From Psychrobium sp. MM17-31 (GTDB taxonomy: Bacteria; Pseudomonadota; Gammaproteobacteria; Enterobacterales; Psychrobiaceae), in assembly GCF_022347785.1 (NCBI RefSeq), contig NZ_JAKRGA010000002.1, positions 806,001 through 870,000 of the forward strand: 64,000 nt of DNA, read 5' to 3'. Made by a program: the position numbers and the translations under genes. The notes below the pieces were generated by a model. The model was not told where the DNA came from, did no database searches, and saw only the letters and a list, made by a program, of their open reading frames with translations. Positions 7,796-18,262 of the stretch are shown here, one piece after another. Position 1 is the first letter of the stretch. Every line of letters begins with the position of its first letter.

Positions 7796-8854
7796 ATGAC
7801 GCCGCAATTGGTACAAAATATTCAGCATCGCCGCGAAGTAATGCGTGCACTGCTTTTTATTATTTGCTTGGGTGGAGTTAGCTTTTTTACTATCAACATC
7901 TATCGCGAAATCTATTTTCTCGCCTTTCTTGAACTCAGCTATAGTATCTACGCCGTTGCTCTGCTGCGCATTATTTCCAAGACAGACAATTTTCAACGCT
8001 GGGTTGTCGCCTTTTTAATCCCCTTGTACTCGCTGATCCTGTACGCCCTTTATTTACCTGAAACATCAAAATCAATGTTTGTGTGGATATTGGCATTTCC
8101 CATCGTTTCTTATTTGTTATTAGGAAAAAAGGCAGGTTGCTTAGTTTCAGTTTTATTCTTGATGACGGCACTTATCATCTATCACGTAAAGTTTTTAACG
8201 ATGCAAGGCTCAGTGGATATAGCAGAGTCACTCAACGTAATATTTAGCTCTGCCTTAATGATTTCATTTGCTCATGTCTATGAAAAAAATCGCGAAAGCA
8301 ACGAAGTGAGGCTGCTGGAATTAGCGGGTACCGATAGCCTAACAGGCGTACCTAATCGACTAAAACTCTATGAAAGCTACGGCCAATGGCTAAAACAGCT
8401 CAAGTGTGGACAGCCTACACCGATGTCGGTTGCGCTAATAGATTTAGACCACTTTAAAACAATCAATGATAAATATGGCCATAGTGCTGGCGATGAAGCA
8501 TTGCGTCATGTTGCTAATTTCATTCGCGCGAAAATGCCTGCTAATGCCTTGCTAGCAAGAATTGGTGGTGAAGAATTCACATTGAAAATAACCGAAGTAG
8601 AGCTAGCGCAGTGTTGCGACTTTATTAATGAGCTACGAAAAGAGCTCAATGAATCTCCACTTGTTCACGAAGGCAAGGTGATAAAGATTACATTTAGCGC
8701 TGGCATTGCAACCTATGGCGAAGATGGCACTAGCCTTGATGCCTTATTGGCTTGCGCCGATAAACGCTTATACATTGCTAAGCGTCAAGGGCGCAATCGC
8801 GTGTGTTGCGAGGGTGTTCACGAGGTTAAAACATCAAACAAAGTTCTTTGCTGA
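7796..8854 (+). CDS. Membrane-bound diguanylate cyclase (GGDEF)
   Basis: 352 aa from ATG 7796 with a good GGAAGG ribosome site; an upstream in-frame TTG at 7772 is unlikely. About six hydrophobic segments cover residues 15-165, followed by a GGDEF domain with the active-site motif GGEEF at residues 257-261 and the DxxxF.NDxxGHxxGD pattern (DLDHFKTINDKYGHSAGDEA). This should make cyclic di-GMP at the inner membrane. The RxxD inhibitory site upstream of GGEEF is replaced by MPAN, so product inhibition is probably lost. The 3' end overlaps the convergent mtnP-like gene by 37 bp. Confidence 0.88.
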   Translation: MTPQLVQNIQHRREVMRALLFIICLGGVSFFTINIYREIYFLAFLELSYSIYAVALLRIISKTDNFQRWVVAFLIPLYSLILYALYLPETSKSMFVWILAFPIVSYLLLGKKAGCLVSVLFLMTALIIYHVKFLTMQGSVDIAESLNVIFSSALMISFAHVYEKNRESNEVRLLELAGTDSLTGVPNRLKLYESYGQWLKQLKCGQPTPMSVALIDLDHFKTINDKYGHSAGDEALRHVANFIRAKMPANALLARIGGEEFTLKITEVELAQCCDFINELRKELNESPLVHEGKVIKITFSAGIATYGEDGTSLDALLACADKRLYIAKRQGRNRVCCEGVHEVKTSNKVLC

Positions 8855-9666
8855 GGATCCATCGCCTCAACAGGCGTTAGTACTGAGCTAGCCAATACGT
8901 GATTACATCCTGTTTGACATACAGCGTCTTGTCCTTTGATATAAGCGGCTAATACGGCCTTGGCTTTTTCTAAACTCTTGCCATAGCGACTAATCACCTG
9001 CTCTACCGTCACATGCTCTTTAGGATCGTCTTGCCAGCAATCATAATCTGTGGCTATGCCGATAGTGCAATAACAAATTTGTGCTTCGCGGGCTAAAAAC
9101 ACCTCAGGCACGTTTGTCATACCAACTAAATCTGCCTGCACGGCATTTTTGAGAAATAAACTCTCAGCTTTAGTGCCTAAGCGCGGGCCATCGACACAGG
9201 CATAGGTTTTGTTGCGATGAACATCGATATCGATAGTAGCCGCCGCTTCGCTAATGCTATCGGCTAACGCACTACACGTTGGCTCTGCCGTTGAAACATG
9301 TGCTACTAAGCCATTACCAAAGAAAGTTTTCTCACGTGGTGATTTCACGAAATCAAAATACTGATCGGCAATAGCTAAATCACCTGGCTTAATTTCTTGC
9401 TGCAAGCTACCTACGGCAGACATCCCAATAATTTGTTTTACCCCTAGCGATTTTAGCGCCCAAATATTAGCGCGATAATTTACTTCCGACGGCAATAACC
9501 CGTGGTGGTTACCGTGACGCGGTAAGAACAAGATTTCCTTACCCAGATATTGGCCGCGAATAATAGGTGCTGACGGCGCGCCAAATGGCGTCTCTACTTC
9601 GTGAGTCTCGATGACCTCTAAGCCATCAATGCTGTAAATTCCAGTGCCACCGATAACGGCTAACAT
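8818..9666 (-). CDS. mtnP: S-methyl-5'-thioadenosine phosphorylase-like nucleoside phosphorylase
   Basis: 282 aa, PNP/MTAP family. Motifs: phosphate-binding GGTGIYS at residues 6-12, PRHGNHH, the base-site MSAVGSL, and MTNVPEVFLAREA followed by TDYDCW. Family members split MTA to adenine and methylthioribose-1-phosphate; some accept 5'-deoxyadenosine or methylthioinosine. It is the last gene of the ten-gene arsenic operon and its start overlaps the arsC stop by 7 bp. It may clear MTA or 5'-deoxyadenosine from the radical SAM reaction, or phosphorolyse an arsenical adenosine adduct; both are inference. A C-terminal extension of about 40 residues contains two cysteines. Confidence 0.87.
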   Translation of the reverse strand: MLAVIGGTGIYSIDGLEVIETHEVETPFGAPSAPIIRGQYLGKEILFLPRHGNHHGLLPSEVNYRANIWALKSLGVKQIIGMSAVGSLQQEIKPGDLAIADQYFDFVKSPREKTFFGNGLVAHVSTAEPTCSALADSISEAAATIDIDVHRNKTYACVDGPRLGTKAESLFLKNAVQADLVGMTNVPEVFLAREAQICYCTIGIATDYDCWQDDPKEHVTVEQVISRYGKSLEKAKAVLAAYIKGQDAVCQTGCNHVLASSVLTPVEAMDPQQRTLFDVLTS

Positions 9667-10097
9667 AAACTTTCCTTATTAAATTGAGCTGGCAATGAGG
9701 TGATCCAATGTTTAATTTCGTCACGTACATCGCGATAGTAATTGAGTGCTTCCTCTGGTGAACTAGCACTTTGCGCGAGTTTCGGCGGATCGTCAAATTG
9801 ACGCATAATTACGTTCGTTTTAGCGGGAAATGTCGGACAATTCGTCGCCGCATGTTCACACACTGCCACCACGTAATCGAACTCACAATCGTCGAATTCA
9901 TTCAGCGTTTGCGATTGATGATTACTAATATCTACACCCACTTCTTGCATTACTTGCACCGCATTCGGGTTTAAGCCGTGGGATTCAATTCCCGCCGAAT
10001 AGCTACGGAATTCATCGCCGAGTAGTGAATTAGCAAAACCGTGCGCCATCTGGCTGCGACACGAGTTTCCGGTACATAAAAATAAAATCGATTTCAT
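9660..10097 (-). CDS. arsC: Thioredoxin-coupled arsenate reductase (LMW-phosphatase fold)
   Basis: 145 aa from the ATG at 10097, preceded by GAGGAAA; a longer reading to 10127 lacks a ribosome site. The P-loop C-X5-R is C8-TGNSC-R14. A C80/C87 pair (CEHAATNC) seven residues apart gives the C10/C82/C89 relay of the S. aureus pI258 ArsC class, and a DP motif follows (FDDPP, 101-105). This cysteine triad separates it from simple low-molecular-weight tyrosine phosphatases. It reduces arsenate to arsenite, the substrate of ArsM encoded two genes upstream. It starts 7 bp after the radical SAM gene. Confidence 0.88.
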   Translation of the reverse strand: MKSILFLCTGNSCRSQMAHGFANSLLGDEFRSYSAGIESHGLNPNAVQVMQEVGVDISNHQSQTLNEFDDCEFDYVVAVCEHAATNCPTFPAKTNVIMRQFDDPPKLAQSASSPEEALNYYRDVRDEIKHWITSLPAQFNKESLC

Positions 10098-10104
10098 CGT
10101 TTCC

Positions 10105-11049
10105 TCACATTTCACTACAACTGGCACCTAGTGCAAAACAGCTGTAACACCTATGGTGTTTAAGGTTTATGATTTGCTTCATGCTCGCGGCAAGGCTAGT
10201 TGCCAAAAAGTAATCTTCGTCATCGTCCACCAACGTGCAAGCGTAAACCTGCATCTGATTGCCTTTCTTAATGATCATCTTAGAGTTGGCGCACATGTAA
10301 TTTTCACGCTGCTGTTCAGTCTGATACTTGGTCATACAGGTGGTAGTAATATGCGGCACATCGGCGATAGAACCCGGCGCTAAAAAGTCAGGAAAGGCCA
10401 CCATAGTCATATCTTCTGGCAGTTTATACTGCGCAAAAAGCTCGTGATACTGCGCTTCAACAGTCGCCGTATCTTCCCCTTTAGCCATGTGTCGTGCGAG
10501 AGAGACGTGAAAACCGTGTTCGTGCAACAGCTGCATACCTTCGAACGCTTTAACGAAGTTTCCTTCACCGCGTCCTGCATCGTGCGTTGCTTGATCTGGT
10601 GAATCGATACTGACACGAAAAGATACAGGATGTTGCCCCTTAGCTTGCAATGCCAATAAGGCATCCATGCGTTTAACCAAAGGTTCGGTGCCATTAGTCA
10701 GCACCAAACAAGGTTTAAACTGCGAGGCATAATCTAAAATTTTAACGATATCTTTAGCGAGAAATGGCTCACCGCCGGTAAACGAAAACTGTTCGACGCC
10801 CATAGTTAAGGCTTCATCGATAAAAGGCTTAACTTCTTCAAACTTAGGCGTTAACAAACGCTTATCAGACGGGCTTGAGCCCTCCAAACAAAAATCGCAC
10901 GCCAAATTACACTTGGTGCCAGTGTGAAACCACAGCTCTTTTAGCGAATGCGGTTTAATGTAACCGCGCGCATCACCCAGTGGCGTGTACTGCCAATTGT
11001 GCAGACGCTCCTGACGAATAGGGATGATTTCACCGACGGAGATATTCAT
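10105..11049 (-). CDS. Radical SAM enzyme with Twitch/SPASM-like cysteine tail, arsenic operon
   Basis: 314 aa. The radical SAM cluster motif CX3CX2C is C47-C51-C54 (KCNLACDFC); the SAM-binding GGEP motif is at residues 92-95, followed by TNGTEP and RVSIDSPD. Further cysteines at 253, 271, 301, 304 and 311 are spaced like a Twitch/SPASM auxiliary iron-sulfur site or a thiolate arsenite site. Its ATG overlaps the arsM stop (TAATG), which ties it to methylarsenic chemistry. It lacks the CHVxASP context and DUF3641 tail expected of cyanobacterial-type ArsS, so it may be an alternative arsenosugar alkylase or an ArsL-like aminocarboxypropyl transferase. Function is inferred from context. Confidence 0.75.
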   Translation of the reverse strand: MNISVGEIIPIRQERLHNWQYTPLGDARGYIKPHSLKELWFHTGTKCNLACDFCLEGSSPSDKRLLTPKFEEVKPFIDEALTMGVEQFSFTGGEPFLAKDIVKILDYASQFKPCLVLTNGTEPLVKRMDALLALQAKGQHPVSFRVSIDSPDQATHDAGRGEGNFVKAFEGMQLLHEHGFHVSLARHMAKGEDTATVEAQYHELFAQYKLPEDMTMVAFPDFLAPGSIADVPHITTTCMTKYQTEQQRENYMCANSKMIIKKGNQMQVYACTLVDDDEDYFLATSLAASMKQIINLKHHRCYSCFALGASCSEM

Positions 11050-12125
11050 TAGCAGCAGCTCGTCTTAGCTTTAGGTGCGGGTGCGCAGCAACCACCACTT
11101 TGCTCGGTTTCATCAGCCATAAAATCGAATTGATGAGCAGGTACGTCAAATAGTCCTTGATGCGTATTAAAATCACCATGAAACTCGAAATGTTTGGCAA
11201 AACGAGACTGCTGTAGTGTGCGCCATGTATTGCCGCTAACCGCCGTTGCTTTCCCCTTAGCAAAGGCCGTATTCTCATCAAAGTTCCACTTACAACCGTG
11301 ATCTTTAATGGTGCCTAAATAGGTTACTGTTTGGCCGTAGTCTTGCGGTGATACTTCAAGATCTTGCGCTTTGAATAAGCGATAAGTCGCCGATGTAAAC
11401 TTAATGTCGCCAAGCTTTTGTGCCAGTTCATCATTATCTATAGTAATGGCGCGACTGCTCACTAAGCGCGGCTCAGCAAAGCCAACCGCCTTAGCTAGGT
11501 TTTCGAAATCGTTCCAATACAGCGCGCCACTTAAGCACTCACCGTACAATAAAGGATCGTCTTTTAGGTGTTGCGGCACACGCTTGTCGGCGTAAACATC
11601 GGAAAAGTAAATTTCGCCACCCGCCTTTAAGATGCGGAACACTTCTTTTAGTACCGCATACTTGTCTGGGCTTAGGTTAATCACACAGTTAGAAATCACT
11701 AAATCCATGCTGTTATCGCTGATATTTAGCTCATCTAACTTTTCAATATAACCTTTTAAAAACTGTGTGTTGGCCTGTTGATAGCCAAATTTTTCACGAT
11801 GATATTCGACATGCTTGTTAGCGACAGCTAGCTGCTCGTCTGTCATATCAACGCCAGTTACACTACCATTTTCCCCAACCATTTGTGCAATGGCGTAACA
11901 ATCGCGTCCAGCGCCACAGCCAAGATCTAATACATCACAGCCAGCTAACTCTTCTGGCGTAACCAAACCACAACCGTAATAGCGTGCCATCACTTCATCG
12001 TGAATATTCGATAAAATCTGTTTAACCTCTGGCGTTAAATCGTCGTCGGTGCAACAAGCATTGGTTTGTAGATCCTCTGATCCTTGTAACACATTGCCGT
12101 AATAATCTTGCACAACGTTATGCAT
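11049..12125 (-). CDS. arsM: Arsenite S-adenosylmethionine methyltransferase
   Basis: 358 aa. The start YYGNVLQGSEDLQTNACC is the family's N-terminus. The SAM motif DLGCGAGRDC is at residues 67-76. The conserved arsenic-binding cysteines are C24/C25 (NACC), C147 (SNCVINL) and C197 (GECLSGAL). The C-terminus adds two pairs, C346-C347 and C357-C358, which may bind As(III) as in other ArsM tails. It methylates arsenite to mono- and dimethylarsenicals. It overlaps the DUF2064 gene by 8 bp at its start and is coupled to the radical SAM gene by TAATG at its end. No arsR or arsB lies nearby, so biosynthesis rather than efflux is suggested. Confidence 0.92.
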   Translation of the reverse strand: MHNVVQDYYGNVLQGSEDLQTNACCTDDDLTPEVKQILSNIHDEVMARYYGCGLVTPEELAGCDVLDLGCGAGRDCYAIAQMVGENGSVTGVDMTDEQLAVANKHVEYHREKFGYQQANTQFLKGYIEKLDELNISDNSMDLVISNCVINLSPDKYAVLKEVFRILKAGGEIYFSDVYADKRVPQHLKDDPLLYGECLSGALYWNDFENLAKAVGFAEPRLVSSRAITIDNDELAQKLGDIKFTSATYRLFKAQDLEVSPQDYGQTVTYLGTIKDHGCKWNFDENTAFAKGKATAVSGNTWRTLQQSRFAKHFEFHGDFNTHQGLFDVPAHQFDFMADETEQSGGCCAPAPKAKTSCC

Positions 12126-12855
12126 GGCTAATTACTCCTGAAGAAATAAACATTTCATTTAAAATAGATAATAATTTTTTGCGCGCCGGGCGCTCATCGC
12201 CTTTCAAATCTTTGATCAGCTTTTTAATATCAGCGACATAATCGATGTCATAACCCGGCGTCATATAGTGCACATCGAGCTCTTGCTCGCTACAACTTTG
12301 CGAGAGTGCCTGCGACAAAGACTCGGTACTCCACGGTAAGTCGATGATGTTTGGCCAAGGATGAGCGTTGGCCATAATCACCACCCCACCATCGTCGGCG
12401 TGACTAAGCACGATGTCGTGCTTGTTTAGCTCGCGCGCTGCTTCGCTAAAATGCTGCGCGGTGAGCATAGGCGCATCGGTGCCTATGGTAATAATTTTTT
12501 CATGACCGAAAACGCGTAATACGTGATCGACATAGTTAAGGCGCTGTCCCAAGTTACCGGACATTCCTGACGGTAATTGCGTCATTACCTGGGCGTTTTC
12601 GTTTAAGCTCTGCGCCCATTCGACATCTTCGTCATGGCTACAAGCGATAACGACAGGCCCGCGCCACGCGTGGCTATCTTCGATTGCACATGCCAACAAC
12701 GCCTTAGCAACAATCAAGGTTTTTTCGGCAGAAATCGTCTCGGCGATGCGCTGCTTTCCTTGATGCAACTTAGGACGTTTACAAAACAACACCAAGGTCG
12801 GCCACTGCTTATTAGCAGTCCCGTCATAATTTGATGTTGGTAATTGATAAGGCAT
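12118..12855 (-). CDS. DUF2064 / CofC-like transferase of the TIGR04282 type
   Basis: 245 aa, GT-A-like nucleotidyl/glycosyl transferase fold. Recognisable DUF2064 motifs are LVLFCKRPKLHQGKQRIA (residues 21-38), MSGNLGQRL, IGTDAPMLTAQHF and DDGGVVIMA, then DLPWSTESL. Some are degenerate compared with the usual GDxCP and DGGYYLIG forms. PGAP-type annotation calls TIGR04282 proteins arsenosugar-biosynthesis glycosyltransferases because they travel with ArsM/ArsS clusters; the biochemical role is not established. It overlaps arsM and follows the DUF547 gene by 38 bp. Confidence 0.8.
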   Translation of the reverse strand: MPYQLPTSNYDGTANKQWPTLVLFCKRPKLHQGKQRIAETISAEKTLIVAKALLACAIEDSHAWRGPVVIACSHDEDVEWAQSLNENAQVMTQLPSGMSGNLGQRLNYVDHVLRVFGHEKIITIGTDAPMLTAQHFSEAARELNKHDIVLSHADDGGVVIMANAHPWPNIIDLPWSTESLSQALSQSCSEQELDVHYMTPGYDIDYVADIKKLIKDLKGDERPARKKLLSILNEMFISSGVISHA

Positions 12856-12893
12856 TGGCTCTCTCGAATAAATAGCGGTTAAATCAAAAGACC

Positions 12894-13724
12894 CTAGTTC
12901 GGCTGATTTAATTTCCAGTTATATGCAAAATCTATGTTGCCGTCGAAGTTACGCAATTTTTCACCCAGCTCAGGCTCAGCGTAATGGCTAAGATGAAGCA
13001 ATAAATCGCGCTCGTTATCGCCAAAGTCGATAGAGAACCAGCTGTAAATACTCGAAAGGACCAAGGTGTCATTATCAAAGTGTACGCCTTTGCGCTGATT
13101 GATAAAACGTTTGGCGCCCTGCTCTAATTGACTTTCGATATCCGATCCAGTTAAGGGTTTTGCTGGTAAATCGGGACAGCCAATGCTGGCACAATTAATC
13201 ACATAATGAATGCGCTTATCTTGATAGATACCGCGCAAAATACCGTGCTCTATTTGATTAAGGGTCAATGGCGTATTAGCGACTACTGCAAGCTCTTCAT
13301 TCCACGGCCCAGTAATGCCATCACCAATCTCTTTAATGGATGAAAGTGGATAATTTTTTAAGATCAGATCTATGGTGAGGGCGTTATAGAGGTTTGCCCA
13401 ATAAGCCATTTGTTCACGCTGATTATAGTCTCGCGGATCGATGCCTTGCAGCTGCGTTAAATAAATCGTTAACTTAGCTTTATCGCCTTGTGACACCGCA
13501 GCGTAATCAAATTCGCGCACGCCGCTATTAACATTTTCACGCAGATAATGATTGAGAATATCGCCCCATAATTGATGATCGATAACGCCGTTACTTTGCT
13601 CATCACTTTGCTGCCATGAAACAATGGCATTGGGGCTAATAGCTTGATACAGCGTGTAAGCTTTTATCGCCAATGCACCAGCGAAAATCACGGCGATAAT
13701 GAATAAAATCTTTAACTTACTCAT
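12894..13724 (-). CDS. DUF547 membrane-anchored protein
   Basis: 276 aa with one N-terminal hydrophobic segment (residues 4-24), so periplasmic with a membrane anchor or uncleaved signal. The DUF547 core is recognised by YWANLYNALTIDLIL and INCASIGCPDLP, which includes two closely spaced cysteines. DUF547 proteins have no assigned activity but often occur beside ArsM-type and glycosyltransferase genes. Its start overlaps the stop of the preceding GT2 gene by 4 bp (ATGA), which indicates translational coupling. A periplasmic DUF547 protein in this operon suggests that the product is handled outside the cytoplasm; that is inference. Confidence 0.8.
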   Translation of the reverse strand: MSKLKILFIIAVIFAGALAIKAYTLYQAISPNAIVSWQQSDEQSNGVIDHQLWGDILNHYLRENVNSGVREFDYAAVSQGDKAKLTIYLTQLQGIDPRDYNQREQMAYWANLYNALTIDLILKNYPLSSIKEIGDGITGPWNEELAVVANTPLTLNQIEHGILRGIYQDKRIHYVINCASIGCPDLPAKPLTGSDIESQLEQGAKRFINQRKGVHFDNDTLVLSSIYSWFSIDFGDNERDLLLHLSHYAEPELGEKLRNFDGNIDFAYNWKLNQPN

Positions 13725-14464
13725 TGCCCGTACCGCAAATAGTGTTTAACGATACGGCGCTTTTTTAGATAAAGCTTGGCAATCATCGATAAGATACCGA
13801 TACCCGCTTTTACCGAGCCTGACAGCGTGCCACTGATTTTAGACTCACCGATACGCACCTTCGAATCTACCGAGTATTCGCTCACCTGCATGCCGCAAAT
13901 AATAGCTTTCACTTGCATCTCTACCGTCCAACCGAACGTTTTATCCTGCATATCGATTGCCATTAACGAGTCACGGCGCATAGCGCGAAATGGCCCGAGA
14001 TCAGTAATCTTTTGTCCCCAAAACAAAGTAATGAGATGGCTCGATAACCAGTTACCAAACATCTGAGTGCTAGTGAGTGCACCTTTTTCGATGTGACCGA
14101 GATTGCGAGAGCCAATCGCCAAATCATCACCATTAACGATCCCTTCTAACATAGGCAACGCTTGCTCCGCAAAGCACGAATCATCACCATCGACAAAGAG
14201 CACGATATCGCAATTAGGTAAACGCTCCATTGCCGTTAAACAGGCGATGCCATAACCCGGAATATCTTGTCTCACCACAACAGCACCAGCCTCTGCTGCC
14301 ACTTGCGCCGTGCTATCGGTAGAGCCGTTATCGCAAACGATAACTTCATCAATAACCTGCTGCTCATTCGCGCGCAGCGCCAGCAATTGACTCACTACCT
14401 TCTTGATAGCAAGCTCTTCATTAAGCGCTGGAATAATGGCGACAACCGATTGACCTTTATACAT
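13721..14464 (-). CDS. GT2 glycosyltransferase, polyprenyl-phosphate mannose synthase-like
   Basis: 247 aa. The GT-A start VVAIIPALNEELAIKKVV, the VCDNGSTDST donor-binding aspartate and the VDGDDS metal site are clear. The acceptor region TDLGPFRAMRR and the EMQVKAI stretch resemble DPM1-type enzymes that load a hexose on polyprenyl phosphate at the cytoplasmic face. There is no transmembrane tail. It precedes DUF547 with an ATGA overlap and follows a GT87-like gene that could use the lipid-linked sugar. It could also be the TIGR04283-type transferase of arsenosugar clusters. Donor sugar unknown; GDP-mannose from the manC-manB pair is possible. Confidence 0.8.
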   Translation of the reverse strand: MYKGQSVVAIIPALNEELAIKKVVSQLLALRANEQQVIDEVIVCDNGSTDSTAQVAAEAGAVVVRQDIPGYGIACLTAMERLPNCDIVLFVDGDDSCFAEQALPMLEGIVNGDDLAIGSRNLGHIEKGALTSTQMFGNWLSSHLITLFWGQKITDLGPFRAMRRDSLMAIDMQDKTFGWTVEMQVKAIICGMQVSEYSVDSKVRIGESKISGTLSGSVKAGIGILSMIAKLYLKKRRIVKHYLRYGQ

Positions 14465-14492
14465 GTAAAACCTCTATGTGCTCAAAGTTATC

Positions 14493-15881
14493 CTATTGAG
14501 CGTGAATATCTCGACTTATCGCTTTATGACTTATCCATTGACGATAAAAATAACGCATAACAGCAACCGCAGCTGCCAACTGTACCAAGCCAACTAACCA
14601 CACTGGCCAAACGGCAGGTTGCCATAGACGCTCACTTAAAAAACCGTTTAGTACTTCATACGTCAATGGCATCAGAAGCGTCCACAAAATTAAATAACGA
14701 TTTGGCGCTAACGCTAACAGGGGCAATAATGGCATTAAATACCACGGGAAAATTACCGGACTAATGAGTAGCGGAATAGCTACAGCAATCTGCGCAGCAA
14801 GAATCAATTGTGATTTATCTGATAACTTTACTCTTTCTTTCCATAAGAAAAGCGCGATTGCCAGTGAAAGTGCAGCGGCGAAAATCAGCATGGTTATCAA
14901 TATTTGATAGCCGTTAAATACCTGATCCAACGCTACAAATAATGGCGCGGCAAAACGCCATTTTTCAAAAAATACCCCGATACTGCCTACCGGATGCAGC
15001 CCTAATCCCAAGGTCACTAGATAAATAGTCGCAATAGTAATCAGAGCGCTAACAACTAATTTAGCAGCGGCTTTGATATTAGGCATGGTAAATATCAAAG
15101 GTAATAACAACATGATTGGTACGACCTTTATCGCCGTACCTAATCCGATGACAACGCCTGTTAGTACAACGCGCTGTCGTTGCCATAAATAAAGCGCAGC
15201 AGCCACCGACAAGGTCGATATTGCATCGATATGTAAACCAATATTGGCTTCTAAGATCAGCAGGGGCGAAAAGGCAATTAACGATAAATGCTGCAATTTC
15301 CCCGCATACTCAAGCACTTTAGCGGCAATAAAAAGTGTGGCTAAACTAGCGCTAAGAATAATCAGCTTCCACGCTAAAAGCGCATGTTCTAATCCAACCG
15401 ATGCTGCAAGTGAAAACAGTCCTAATGCCAAAGGTGGATACAAAGTGACATATTTGGCGTGTTCGCTTGGTGGTTGCCATTGCGCCCGCAGTTCTTGTAG
15501 CTGCGGCGCATCGTGACTAACCCGATAAGGATCTAGTCCTTCAACGGCAATGCGGCCATCAAACAAATAACGATCAACATCGTTAGAGGCATAAGATCCC
15601 GCATCAATAAGTAGTATGCGTGCCAGCACTGCAACCGCTAATAACCAGCTAATATCCTTAAAGCTAATTGCCTCTGGCGCACTCTTCCATGCCGCTAGCA
15701 TGGCGATTGCCATGAGCGAATACTGCGCCATGGTCAAATAACCCATGTTATAAGCAGGCCTAACCGCAGCAAGCTCTGCTAAGTAATAACTTGCCAAGGC
15801 GAGTAGCAACACCGCAAATGCGCTAATCCGAAATACAGCGCTATGTGGCGTGCGCGCAAAAAGCCCTGACAAAACAGCCAT
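14493..15881 (-). CDS. GT-C integral membrane glycosyltransferase (GT87/DUF2029-like)
   Basis: 462 aa with about eleven hydrophobic segments. A periplasmic loop near residues 96-107 carries NDVDRYLFDG, the acidic pair typical of GT-C enzymes, and later YPPLALG and GTAIKVVPIMLLLP, which match GT87-type mannosyltransferases. Such enzymes take sugars from polyprenyl-phosphate donors on the periplasmic side. The neighbour at 13721 is a plausible donor synthase. It is separated from the upstream cellulose-synthase-like gene by 2 bp. The acceptor is unknown. Confidence 0.75.
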   Translation of the reverse strand: MAVLSGLFARTPHSAVFRISAFAVLLLALASYYLAELAAVRPAYNMGYLTMAQYSLMAIAMLAAWKSAPEAISFKDISWLLAVAVLARILLIDAGSYASNDVDRYLFDGRIAVEGLDPYRVSHDAPQLQELRAQWQPPSEHAKYVTLYPPLALGLFSLAASVGLEHALLAWKLIILSASLATLFIAAKVLEYAGKLQHLSLIAFSPLLILEANIGLHIDAISTLSVAAALYLWQRQRVVLTGVVIGLGTAIKVVPIMLLLPLIFTMPNIKAAAKLVVSALITIATIYLVTLGLGLHPVGSIGVFFEKWRFAAPLFVALDQVFNGYQILITMLIFAAALSLAIALFLWKERVKLSDKSQLILAAQIAVAIPLLISPVIFPWYLMPLLPLLALAPNRYLILWTLLMPLTYEVLNGFLSERLWQPAVWPVWLVGLVQLAAAVAVMRYFYRQWISHKAISRDIHAQ

Positions 15882-15883
15882 AA

Positions 15884-17368
15884 CTACTTAGATAGCTGGT
15901 AGTGGTGATAGAAACTATGCAGCGCTGCTGTAACAAAGCCGATGGTTAGTAGCAATAAGAACGGCAACATAAACCAATGTTGATGGTTAATCGCCCACAT
16001 TAGTACTACGGCATAAACACCAGCAATAATGAATTCGAATATGGCTCCTTTCGGCGCTACGGCTTTATAGTTCTTAATCGTCTCAGGAACAATACTCACC
16101 GGCTTAACGTCATTTTGCAGCTCGCCCGTCTTCGGCGTGCGCACGAATTCACTTTCGCGGCCCATTAATGCTTCGAGACCCGCTTTCGAGTTGTTAATCG
16201 CCAGCTGAATACCAAGCATCACTAAGTTAGGTACTTTCACTAATGCACGACTCTTATTACGTTTCAGAGCGATTTGTCCCCAGTACAAGTAAATTAGGTG
16301 ACCACCAGATGACATGATTAACAGCGGAATATCGATCCACCAGATATTCAAGAAATCGTATTTATCACGTAATAATAAACTCGGCACCAAGAAGAATAAG
16401 GTGTCCACTAGCATCACGAAATACGCAAGGTTATTCGACAAATGAAAGGTCGACTCGATTTTCTTAGTCAGCGGTATTTTAGCGCGCCATACTGTCGACA
16501 GCATCTTCATCATTACCTGCACACCGCCTTTCGCCCACCGATATTGCTGTGACTTAAAGGCGTTCATATCAGCAGGTAACTCTCCCGGACATGGAATGTG
16601 ATTTAGATACACCATCTTCCAGCCTTTAAGCTGAGCACGGTAACTTAAATCGAGATCTTCGGTAAGAGTGTCGGCGCTCCAATGTCCAGCATCGATAATG
16701 GCCGACGTACGCCAAATACCCGCAGTACCATTAAAGTTAAACAGCATATTACTCGCGCTGCGCACTTGTTGCTCCAGACTAAAATGCGCATCAAGCATAA
16801 TGGCTTGGGTCTTGGTTAACAGGCTGCTACGGCGATTTAAATGCTCCCAACGCAGTTGCACCATAGCCACATCTTTTTGGGTGAAATAGTGAATGCTATC
16901 GAGCAAGGTATTAGGGTGCGGAATAAAGTCGGCATCGAAAATTGCGATAAATTCACCAGTCGCCGTATCCATCGCATCTTTAAGCGCGCCTGCTTTAAAG
17001 CCTTGACGATTAACGCGCTGCACATGCTCGATGTCGATGCCTTGTTGCTGATAAAACTTTACTCGCTCGGCAACTAACTCACAGGTATCGTCGTTAGAAT
17101 CATCGACAATCTGTATTTGCAGCTTATCGTGTGGGTATTCTAACTTAACGATAGAATCGACAATACGCTGCGCCACCATGCGCTCGTTATACAACGGAAT
17201 TTGCACAGTTACCTTAGGTAACTGAGCAAATTCTTTCGGCGTTGCAGGTTGATGCTTGCGATAGCGAAACCAACGAAATACCATCGACAAGCGATGCAAA
17301 CCAAATAAACAAAGGATAAATAGCAATGCAAAGTGAATTGCTATAATCGACATACTTAACACCGACAT
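15884..17368 (-). CDS. Cellulose-synthase-like processive GT2 membrane glycosyltransferase
   Basis: 494 aa. An N-terminal TM segment (7-27) is followed by a GT2 domain with VTVQIPLYNE, DDSNDDT, the DxD motif FDADF, TEDLD and the QxxRW motif as QQYRWAKG. Four or more TM segments follow (from about residue 300). This D,D,D,Q(Q/R)XRW set is shared by cellulose, hyaluronan, glucomannan (CslA/CslC) and ceramide-type glucosyltransferases. There is no PilZ domain, BcsB or BcsZ nearby, so bacterial cellulose is unlikely; a glycolipid or short glycan is more probable. It is second in the operon, 42 bp after the beta-barrel gene. Confidence 0.82.
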   Translation of the reverse strand: MSVLSMSIIAIHFALLFILCLFGLHRLSMVFRWFRYRKHQPATPKEFAQLPKVTVQIPLYNERMVAQRIVDSIVKLEYPHDKLQIQIVDDSNDDTCELVAERVKFYQQQGIDIEHVQRVNRQGFKAGALKDAMDTATGEFIAIFDADFIPHPNTLLDSIHYFTQKDVAMVQLRWEHLNRRSSLLTKTQAIMLDAHFSLEQQVRSASNMLFNFNGTAGIWRTSAIIDAGHWSADTLTEDLDLSYRAQLKGWKMVYLNHIPCPGELPADMNAFKSQQYRWAKGGVQVMMKMLSTVWRAKIPLTKKIESTFHLSNNLAYFVMLVDTLFFLVPSLLLRDKYDFLNIWWIDIPLLIMSSGGHLIYLYWGQIALKRNKSRALVKVPNLVMLGIQLAINNSKAGLEALMGRESEFVRTPKTGELQNDVKPVSIVPETIKNYKAVAPKGAIFEFIIAGVYAVVLMWAINHQHWFMLPFLLLLTIGFVTAALHSFYHHYQLSK

Positions 17369-17410
17369 GTTGTAACGACCTACCTAGTAAAATTTATCTA
17401 AAAGACTTAC

Positions 17411-18262
17411 TTAGAAGACTTTGGTAAAACCAATTTCAAATCTATCGCCTTTCAAAATATTGTCGCCATAGATTTCATTGGTATAAGTGAACTCGACACC
17501 ATAGCCTTTAAGGCTGCTGTTTTTGTCGAAGTTCCAACCAGCTGTTAACTCTAACTTACCAGAATCGAACTCAAATGGGTTAGAAAGGTTTCCAGTGTTG
17601 ACCGCCGTCGCATCAGAGTTCTCTGCGCTTAAAATACCATCAAGTTTGGTTCTAAAATACAGATTTTCATTGGCGTTAAAACCGTATTCTAGTAAATAAC
17701 GATACTCATCTGATGGATCGCCTTGACGCAGACGGTAACCAAATTCAGCACCAAAATAACCGTATTCGTTTAAGCTCTTACCGATAAGTACTTTAGCTTC
17801 GTAATCGGTTTGGTCATTCCCCAAACCATCTTCCGCGTCATACAAGAACGGGGTTTTGATTAAGAATGACGTTGAAACAACAAAGGGATTTGCTTGCCAT
17901 TGGTATTTGATACCAATTTCTGCATCGCCAAAACCGCTCGCACTGCTTTTACCAAGCACTGTATCTTCTTGATCGTAAGATTGGTTTAACAGTGACCCAT
18001 AAAGCGCGAATTTCTTACCTAACCCGTATTCTGCATAAAGTGAAACACTGTTGCTTTCGAAATCAACGAATGTTGGATTAGAGCCGTGGTAATCATCTGC
18101 ACTGTAGGTAGCAACGCCTAGTTTAACGTAGCCAGAATCTTTCTTGGCAACCCAAGCACCAGCGTTGGCATTAGCAGTTGCTAATAGTGCTGTTACCGCT
18201 AGTGCAGTAGCAGATAATTTAGTTATAGAACCTTGGGTACTGCCTGACTTTAAGTTTTTCAT
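17411..18262 (-). CDS. Outer-membrane beta-barrel protein, first gene of the arsenic/glycan operon
   Basis: 283 aa with a signal peptide cleaved after ATANANA (about residue 34), although the n-region is long. The mature protein shows alternating aromatic strands (YVKLGVATYS, VSLYAEYGLG, LYGSLLNQSY, FGAEFGYRLRQG) and ends in the C-terminal F of BAM substrates (FEIGFTKVF). No specific family is recognised. As the promoter-proximal gene of the operon, 42 bp before the membrane GT2, it may export or receive the glycosylated product; that role is inference. A long hairpin at 18462-18520 separates it from the upstream PAS-EAL gene. Confidence 0.75.
   Translation of the reverse strand: MKNLKSGSTQGSITKLSATALAVTALLATANANAGAWVAKKDSGYVKLGVATYSADDYHGSNPTFVDFESNSVSLYAEYGLGKKFALYGSLLNQSYDQEDTVLGKSSASGFGDAEIGIKYQWQANPFVVSTSFLIKTPFLYDAEDGLGNDQTDYEAKVLIGKSLNEYGYFGAEFGYRLRQGDPSDEYRYLLEYGFNANENLYFRTKLDGILSAENSDATAVNTGNLSNPFEFDSGKLELTAGWNFDKNSSLKGYGVEFTYTNEIYGDNILKGDRFEIGFTKVF

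Follow-up and report, generated by a model that had tools for sequence, protein, structure and literature searches.

The window, namely the whole stretch of 64,000 nucleotides of Psychrobium sp. MM17-31 that was analysed, carries on its minus strand a dense block of genes extending from 18262 to 8818, in which a gene for a radical SAM enzyme lies between those of an arsenite methyltransferase and an arsenate reductase. From the first gene onwards, the block comprises:

17411-18262, minus strand: outer-membrane-protein-like gene, no Pfam match
15884-17368, minus strand: GT2 glycosyltransferase of the processive type (cellulose/PgaC-like; NCBIfam, Pfam)
14493-15881, minus strand: GT87-type membrane glycosyltransferase (Pfam)
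13721-14464, minus strand: GT2 glycosyltransferase, AglJ/dolichyl-phosphate-sugar-synthase-like, with a weak TIGR04283 match (NCBIfam, Pfam)
12894-13724, minus strand: DUF547 protein (Pfam); DUF547 is also found beside ArsS in locus L060
12118-12855, minus strand: TIGR04282/DUF2064 CofC-like protein, the model being named "arsenosugar biosynthesis glycosyltransferase"
11049-12125, minus strand: ArsM-type arsenite methyltransferase with a C-terminal extension, 358 aa, best NCBIfam model PRK11873
10105-11049, minus strand: radical SAM gene, 314 aa, nine invariant cysteines, no family model
9660-10127, minus strand: ArsC-like low-molecular-weight arsenate reductase, 155 aa counted from GTG
8818-9666, minus strand: MTAP (S-methyl-5'-thioadenosine phosphorylase homologue) of the adenine type, TDYDCW

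An earlier note on this DNA had rightly placed the radical SAM gene at 10105-11049, on what proves to be the minus strand, and beside arsM (11049-12125), with which it overlaps by 1 base upstream; downstream, it overlaps by 23 bases with the ArsC-like gene, which has an in-frame ATG shortly after its GTG start. A 95-aa open reading frame at 10407-10694 was rejected as a gene, being a shadow frame within the radical SAM gene, and scans for promoters and terminators gave matches that were rarer than in shuffled sequence and hence uninformative. As for the NCBIfam scores of the neighbours, MTAP reaches 289 bits with TIGR01694, above the cut-off, and has relatives in the PDB. The ArsM-type protein scores 184 bits with the arsenite methyltransferase model PRK11873 (cut-off 263), the ArsC-like protein 145.7 bits with TIGR02691 (cut-off 174.3) and the CofC-like protein, which also matches DUF2064 in Pfam, 111.3 bits with TIGR04282 (cut-off 134), each of them below the respective cut-off.

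The order ArsM-radical SAM-(ArsC)-MTAP is kept in 14 relatives, 63-83% identical and found in named GTDB genomes of Colwelliaceae, Shewanellaceae, Alteromonadaceae and uncultured gammaproteobacteria. In these relatives TIGR04282, DUF547, GT2 and GT87 genes lie upstream wherever the contig reaches, and the outer-membrane-protein-like gene keeps its position in several of them; in locus L012 the TIGR04282 gene was seen in one reading of the neighbourhood and not called in another. ArsC is encoded in most Colwelliaceae and Shewanellaceae loci and is absent in L015 and L016.

The radical SAM protein and its relation to known families

The protein belongs to the radical SAM superfamily, as it possesses the CX3CX2C motif and scores 67.8 bits with PF04055 (Radical_SAM), for which the gathering score is 29.5; the other Pfam match is a weak one to Fer4_12. 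The claim of the earlier note that it is not a canonical ArsS is borne out by a search with TIGR04167, the ArsS model, in which the protein reaches 45.9 bits, the cut-off being 300, and is matched at residues 32-209, that is, in the core only. The best NCBIfam model is NF049973, the Rv1681 family, with 121.5 bits against a cut-off of 380 over residues 38-214, and six further members of the family give the same picture (75-102 bits with this model). Assignment to Rv1681 was rejected, since the score is under the cut-off and the tail is unmatched. The family is not represented by any model of NCBIfam release 20 or Pfam, and no paper on it was found in the literature searched. Iterated profiles drifted between ArsS and the new family, one member (L078) being drawn in as ArsS; therefore, proteins were assigned to families by their NCBIfam scores and by an A1-based search. 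The protein is a member of an unnamed, divergent ArsS-like family, and the reaction proposed for it is of a class already known from ArsS.

Nine cysteines, specifically C47, C51, C54, C238, C253, C271, C301, C304 and C311, are invariant and near-fixed in spacing among 48 non-redundant members, a degree of conservation far beyond chance. This set is made up of the gammaproteobacterial clade and of a second, more distant clade within the same phylum (137-197 bits in the search). The triad C47, C51 and C54 and the five additional cysteines at 253, 271, 301, 304 and 311 lie where the earlier note had put them; two had escaped it, namely the invariant C238 and C114, the latter not conserved beyond close relatives. 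The auxiliary Fe-S cluster, which the note had suggested beside As(III) binding as a possible role of its five cysteines, gains support from the conservation of the tail cysteines: judging from the sequence, C238 and the later C253, C271, C301, C304 and C311 most likely bind an auxiliary cluster of the twitch type.

The tail also bears on the relation to ArsS. In profile-profile comparisons the alignment of the family with ArsS spans 271 columns and includes the tail, whereas those with MoaA, with two SPASM-type controls and with Rv1681 span 138-170 columns and are confined to the core; in other words, ArsS alone among the families tested gives a full-length alignment that includes the Cys-rich tail. 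When the C-terminal third is compared by itself, ArsS is matched at E 3e-4 (probability 38%) and the controls at E 0.16 or worse, and the match to ArsS is weaker when the clades are taken separately (E 0.007 for the gammaproteobacterial clade, E 0.035 for the distant one). Moreover, C253, C271, C301, C304 and C311 are in register with the ArsS cysteines of VMC, YDC, HCYGC and GSSC, and the CLEGSSP that follows the triad lies opposite ArsS CHVxAGP in the profile alignment. The earlier note is right on the absence of the literal CHVxASP and of DUF3641, of which a Pfam search of the protein found no match, but to call the ArsS features absent is too strong in view of these aligned tail cysteines and CLEGSSP. 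The protein probably has a divergent version of the ArsS-type tail, for which the alignments provide moderate evidence, not proof.

The catalytic core matches the Rv1681 profile (E 1e-29) better than that of ArsS. In a tree of the core, the family and ArsS are separated from MoaA, SPASM and Rv1681 with support of 99/97, on very long branches and with AU tests rejecting no alternative placement; the tree is compatible with ArsS as a sister to the family or inside it. The predicted structure, of moderate confidence (mean pLDDT 74) and low-confidence in the tail, has the fold expected of a radical SAM enzyme, the best fold matches being BlsE, SkfB and MoaA. Matches to solved structures are confined to distant radical SAM cores, for this protein and for true ArsS alike, and offer no template that would decide the reaction.

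Distribution and gene neighbourhoods compared with ArsS

Among 399 genomes of the phylum, the family is carried by 39 and true ArsS by 116 (E 1e-50), and the two never occur in the same genome, as compared with 11.3 joint occurrences expected (hypergeometric P 7e-7). TIGR04282, present in 167 of the 399, is found in all 39 carriers, in 104 of the 116 ArsS genomes and in 24 of the 244 with neither (carriers against neither, Fisher P 1e-31); both P values are nominal, as the sampled genomes are related and the carriers cluster in some families. Two of the 39 carriers, G233 and G248, encode true Rv1681 proteins that lack the Cys tail, and the 37 with the nine-cysteine form give the same result. 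TIGR04283 is matched in all 34 nine-cysteine carriers tested, near or above the cut-off in 28, by a model that also gives weak matches in many unrelated genomes. Of the GTDB families in the sample, 19 have carriers, 25 have ArsS and none has both. The family is present in nine of ten genomes from the genus of the window. In its place the remaining genome, G002, has ArsS, a single swap that is only suggestive, the assembly being 94% complete with 3% contamination. In G002, the one congener in the sample that has true ArsS, the locus (L060, contig C177) includes MTAP, GT87 and an AglJ-like GT2 no more than 8 kb from ArsS, and contamination of the assembly is possible.

The genes found near the radical SAM gene in the 34 family loci that were read include ArsM (22 loci), TIGR04282 (21), MTAP (16) and those of the TVP38/oxidoreductase type (16). 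TVP38-FAD oxidoreductase, TIGR04282, TIGR04283, the long ArsM and MTAP are common to ArsS and family loci, as exemplified by L060, L103, L104 and L105 for ArsS and by L062, L063, L066, L067, L071 and L098-L101 for the family. In particular, the long ArsM subtype is next to or near ArsS in L104 and L105, and MTAP neighbours true ArsS in L105 and is 6.6 kb away in L060. With ArsM, TIGR04282, DUF547, TVP38-oxidoreductase and MTAP in common with ArsS, the family is found in an arsenosugar gene neighbourhood; the "arsenosugar" names of TIGR04282 and TIGR04283 probably rest, in turn, on association with ArsS.

Mutual exclusion with ArsS and the common partner set argue that the two enzymes act in the same pathway, and the complementary distribution is the new point here. 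The idea, already put forward from the sequence, that the enzyme replaces ArsS and yields the same 5'-deoxyadenosyl arsenical is in this way well supported, though indirectly, with ArsS in 0 of 39 carriers, TIGR04282 in 39 of 39 and partners of the ArsS type.

At a threshold of E 1e-30, ArsM is detected in 18 of 39 carriers, as against 69 of 116 ArsS genomes, and therefore it is not certain for every carrier that arsenic is the substrate; where no match is found, a divergent ArsM may have escaped the search, or the organism may import its substrate or use one other than arsenic. One could thus suppose that the enzyme serves a TIGR04282/TIGR04283 glycan or lipid pathway, dealing with something other than arsenic in most carriers, and that the linkage to arsM is secondary. 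This would accommodate the 21 of 39 carriers without ArsM at that threshold, several distant-clade loci without a nearby ars gene, and the true Rv1681 family, which likewise lies beside TIGR04282 and glycosyltransferases in L088 and L089. We consider it distinctly unlikely, however, as ArsM is next to or near the gene in 22 of the 34 loci read, ArsS genomes too are often without ArsM at E 1e-30 (47 of 116), and the mutual exclusion with ArsS and the common partners speak against it.

Some arrangements in other genomes touch on the same gene set. The true Rv1681 proteins of G233 and G248 (L088:11073-12182 and L089:10738-11847; 497-498 bits) are encoded near TIGR04282, a second radical SAM gene, GT87 and GT2, and possibly represent a third kind of radical SAM enzyme associated with these glycosyltransferases. 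TVP38-oxidoreductase, TIGR04282 and TIGR04283 genes adjoin in G085, G424 and G344 (L090, L091 and L097), complete genomes without ArsS or the family. The 1.2 Mb genome G388 has a radical SAM gene of the family beside a TVP38 gene (L070:6263-7171), TIGR04282 and TIGR04283 elsewhere in the genome, and no ArsM at E 1e-30.

A proposed pathway and the role of MTAP

ArsS is described in PMC12159101, with reference to Cheng et al. 2021, as the radical SAM enzyme that adenosylates arsenic in arsenosugar biosynthesis. Taking sequence and genomic context together, we consider it likely that the new family is an alternative synthase of 5'-deoxy-5'-dimethylarsinoyl-adenosine (DDMAA), placing a 5'-deoxyadenosyl group onto dimethylarsenite. 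Arsenate would be reduced by ArsC, and arsenite would be methylated by ArsM to a trivalent dimethylarsenical. SAM would be reductively cleaved at the [4Fe-4S] cluster of C47, C51 and C54, and the 5'-deoxyadenosyl radical would react with dimethylarsenite to give DDMAA, which elsewhere is the job of ArsS; Cheng et al. in 2021 reportedly identified DDMAA as the ArsS product. MTAP would then exchange the adenine of DDMAA for phosphate, yielding arsenoribose-1-phosphate, which the TIGR04282 and glycosyltransferase proteins would activate and then transfer; nucleotidyl transfer by TIGR04282 is proposed because of its relationship to CofC.

The involvement of MTAP is suggested by its linkage. Among 40 relatives, an MTAP-family gene is present in all 12 carriers and in 3 of 28 non-carriers, and in 10 of the 12 it adjoins the radical SAM gene; the cluster copies that were read through all keep the adenine-type TDYDCW (or TDYDSW). 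The genome of the window and most of its genus have the MTA nucleosidase MtnN and no MtnA. MTAP is therefore not needed for the disposal of MTA and, MtnA being absent, its usual product leads nowhere in the known salvage route. Consequently, DDMAA, as another 5'-modified adenosine, would be a reasonable substrate, and we give about even chances to MTAP phosphorolysing the 5'-deoxyadenosyl arsenical as the step next after the radical SAM enzyme. In the literature searched, no enzyme is named for the step in which DDMAA loses its adenine, and the conserved MTAP neighbour is a concrete candidate for it.

In the other two carriers, G025 and G031 (L129 and L128), both with MtnA, the best phosphorylase copy is outside the cluster and has VVNMAAG or VVNKAAG instead of TDYDCW, a sequence difference that suggests 6-oxopurine specificity.

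A different role for MTAP would be to remove the 5'-deoxyadenosine produced by radical SAM turnover, with no part in making the arsenical. This compound is presented as an inhibitory radical SAM by-product in PMC8102628, and MTA-salvage enzymes can handle it (PMC6302742). Adenosylation, however, uses up the radical, so that 5'-deoxyadenosine should form in small amounts only; these genomes also have MtnN, which can deal with it, and a linked MTAP is often missing in carriers outside the lineage of the window. Such a clean-up function is, on balance, rather doubtful.

The neighbouring MTAP would also suit an enzyme that releases MTA, as in the alternative raised by the earlier note of an ArsL-like transferase with MTA as by-product. 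ArsL, a protein of 428 aa with only three conserved cysteines, is encoded next to arsM in arsQML (PMC8552651), and the radical SAM gene of the window adjoins arsM in the same way. We rejected an ArsL-type reading, which is very improbable for a 314-aa protein with nine invariant cysteines and no ArsL model among its 25 best NCBIfam hits: the block has no arsQ-type gene, the partner genes are those of ArsS clusters, and the genome has MtnN for MTA, without MtnA.

Returning to DDMAA synthesis, the block at 8818-18262 as a whole might encode a complete alternative arsenosugar pathway, tentative as this extension is, with ArsC, ArsM, a second DDMAA synthase, MTAP as arsenonucleoside phosphorylase, TIGR04282 as nucleotidylyltransferase, and GT2 and GT87 proteins passing arsenoribose to a polyprenyl carrier and then to a lipid or glycan. 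If the family is indeed an alternative DDMAA synthase, genome surveys that use TIGR04167 only would miss a second family of arsenosugar makers in about 10% of the sampled genomes (39/399), including Colwelliaceae, Shewanellaceae and Alteromonadaceae.

Compared with known systems, the new family resembles SPASM/twitch enzymes (BlsE, SkfB and MoaA folds) in its radical SAM partial barrel and Cys-rich C-terminal region, but similarity in sequence is limited to the core and the spacing of the tail differs (CX17-19C, CX2-3CX6C). With ArsL of arsQML it has in common a gene adjoining arsM, whereas length, conserved cysteines and neighbours are other and no sequence match appears among the best models. 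The Rv1681 family provides the best-scoring core, a CxxxCxxCxxxSSP context and, in two genomes, a position beside TIGR04282 and glycosyltransferases, but its match ends at residue 214 and its true members in L088 and L089 are without the Cys-rich tail. Finally, the family differs from ArsS (TIGR04167) in having CLEGSSP after the triad, where ArsS has CHVxAGP, and the additional invariant C238, while it shares with ArsS the radical SAM core, a similar length, the C-terminal MC...C...HxCxxC...SC pattern of cysteines as aligned by profile, and the neighbours TIGR04282, TIGR04283, TVP38-oxidoreductase, DUF547, ArsM and sometimes MTAP.
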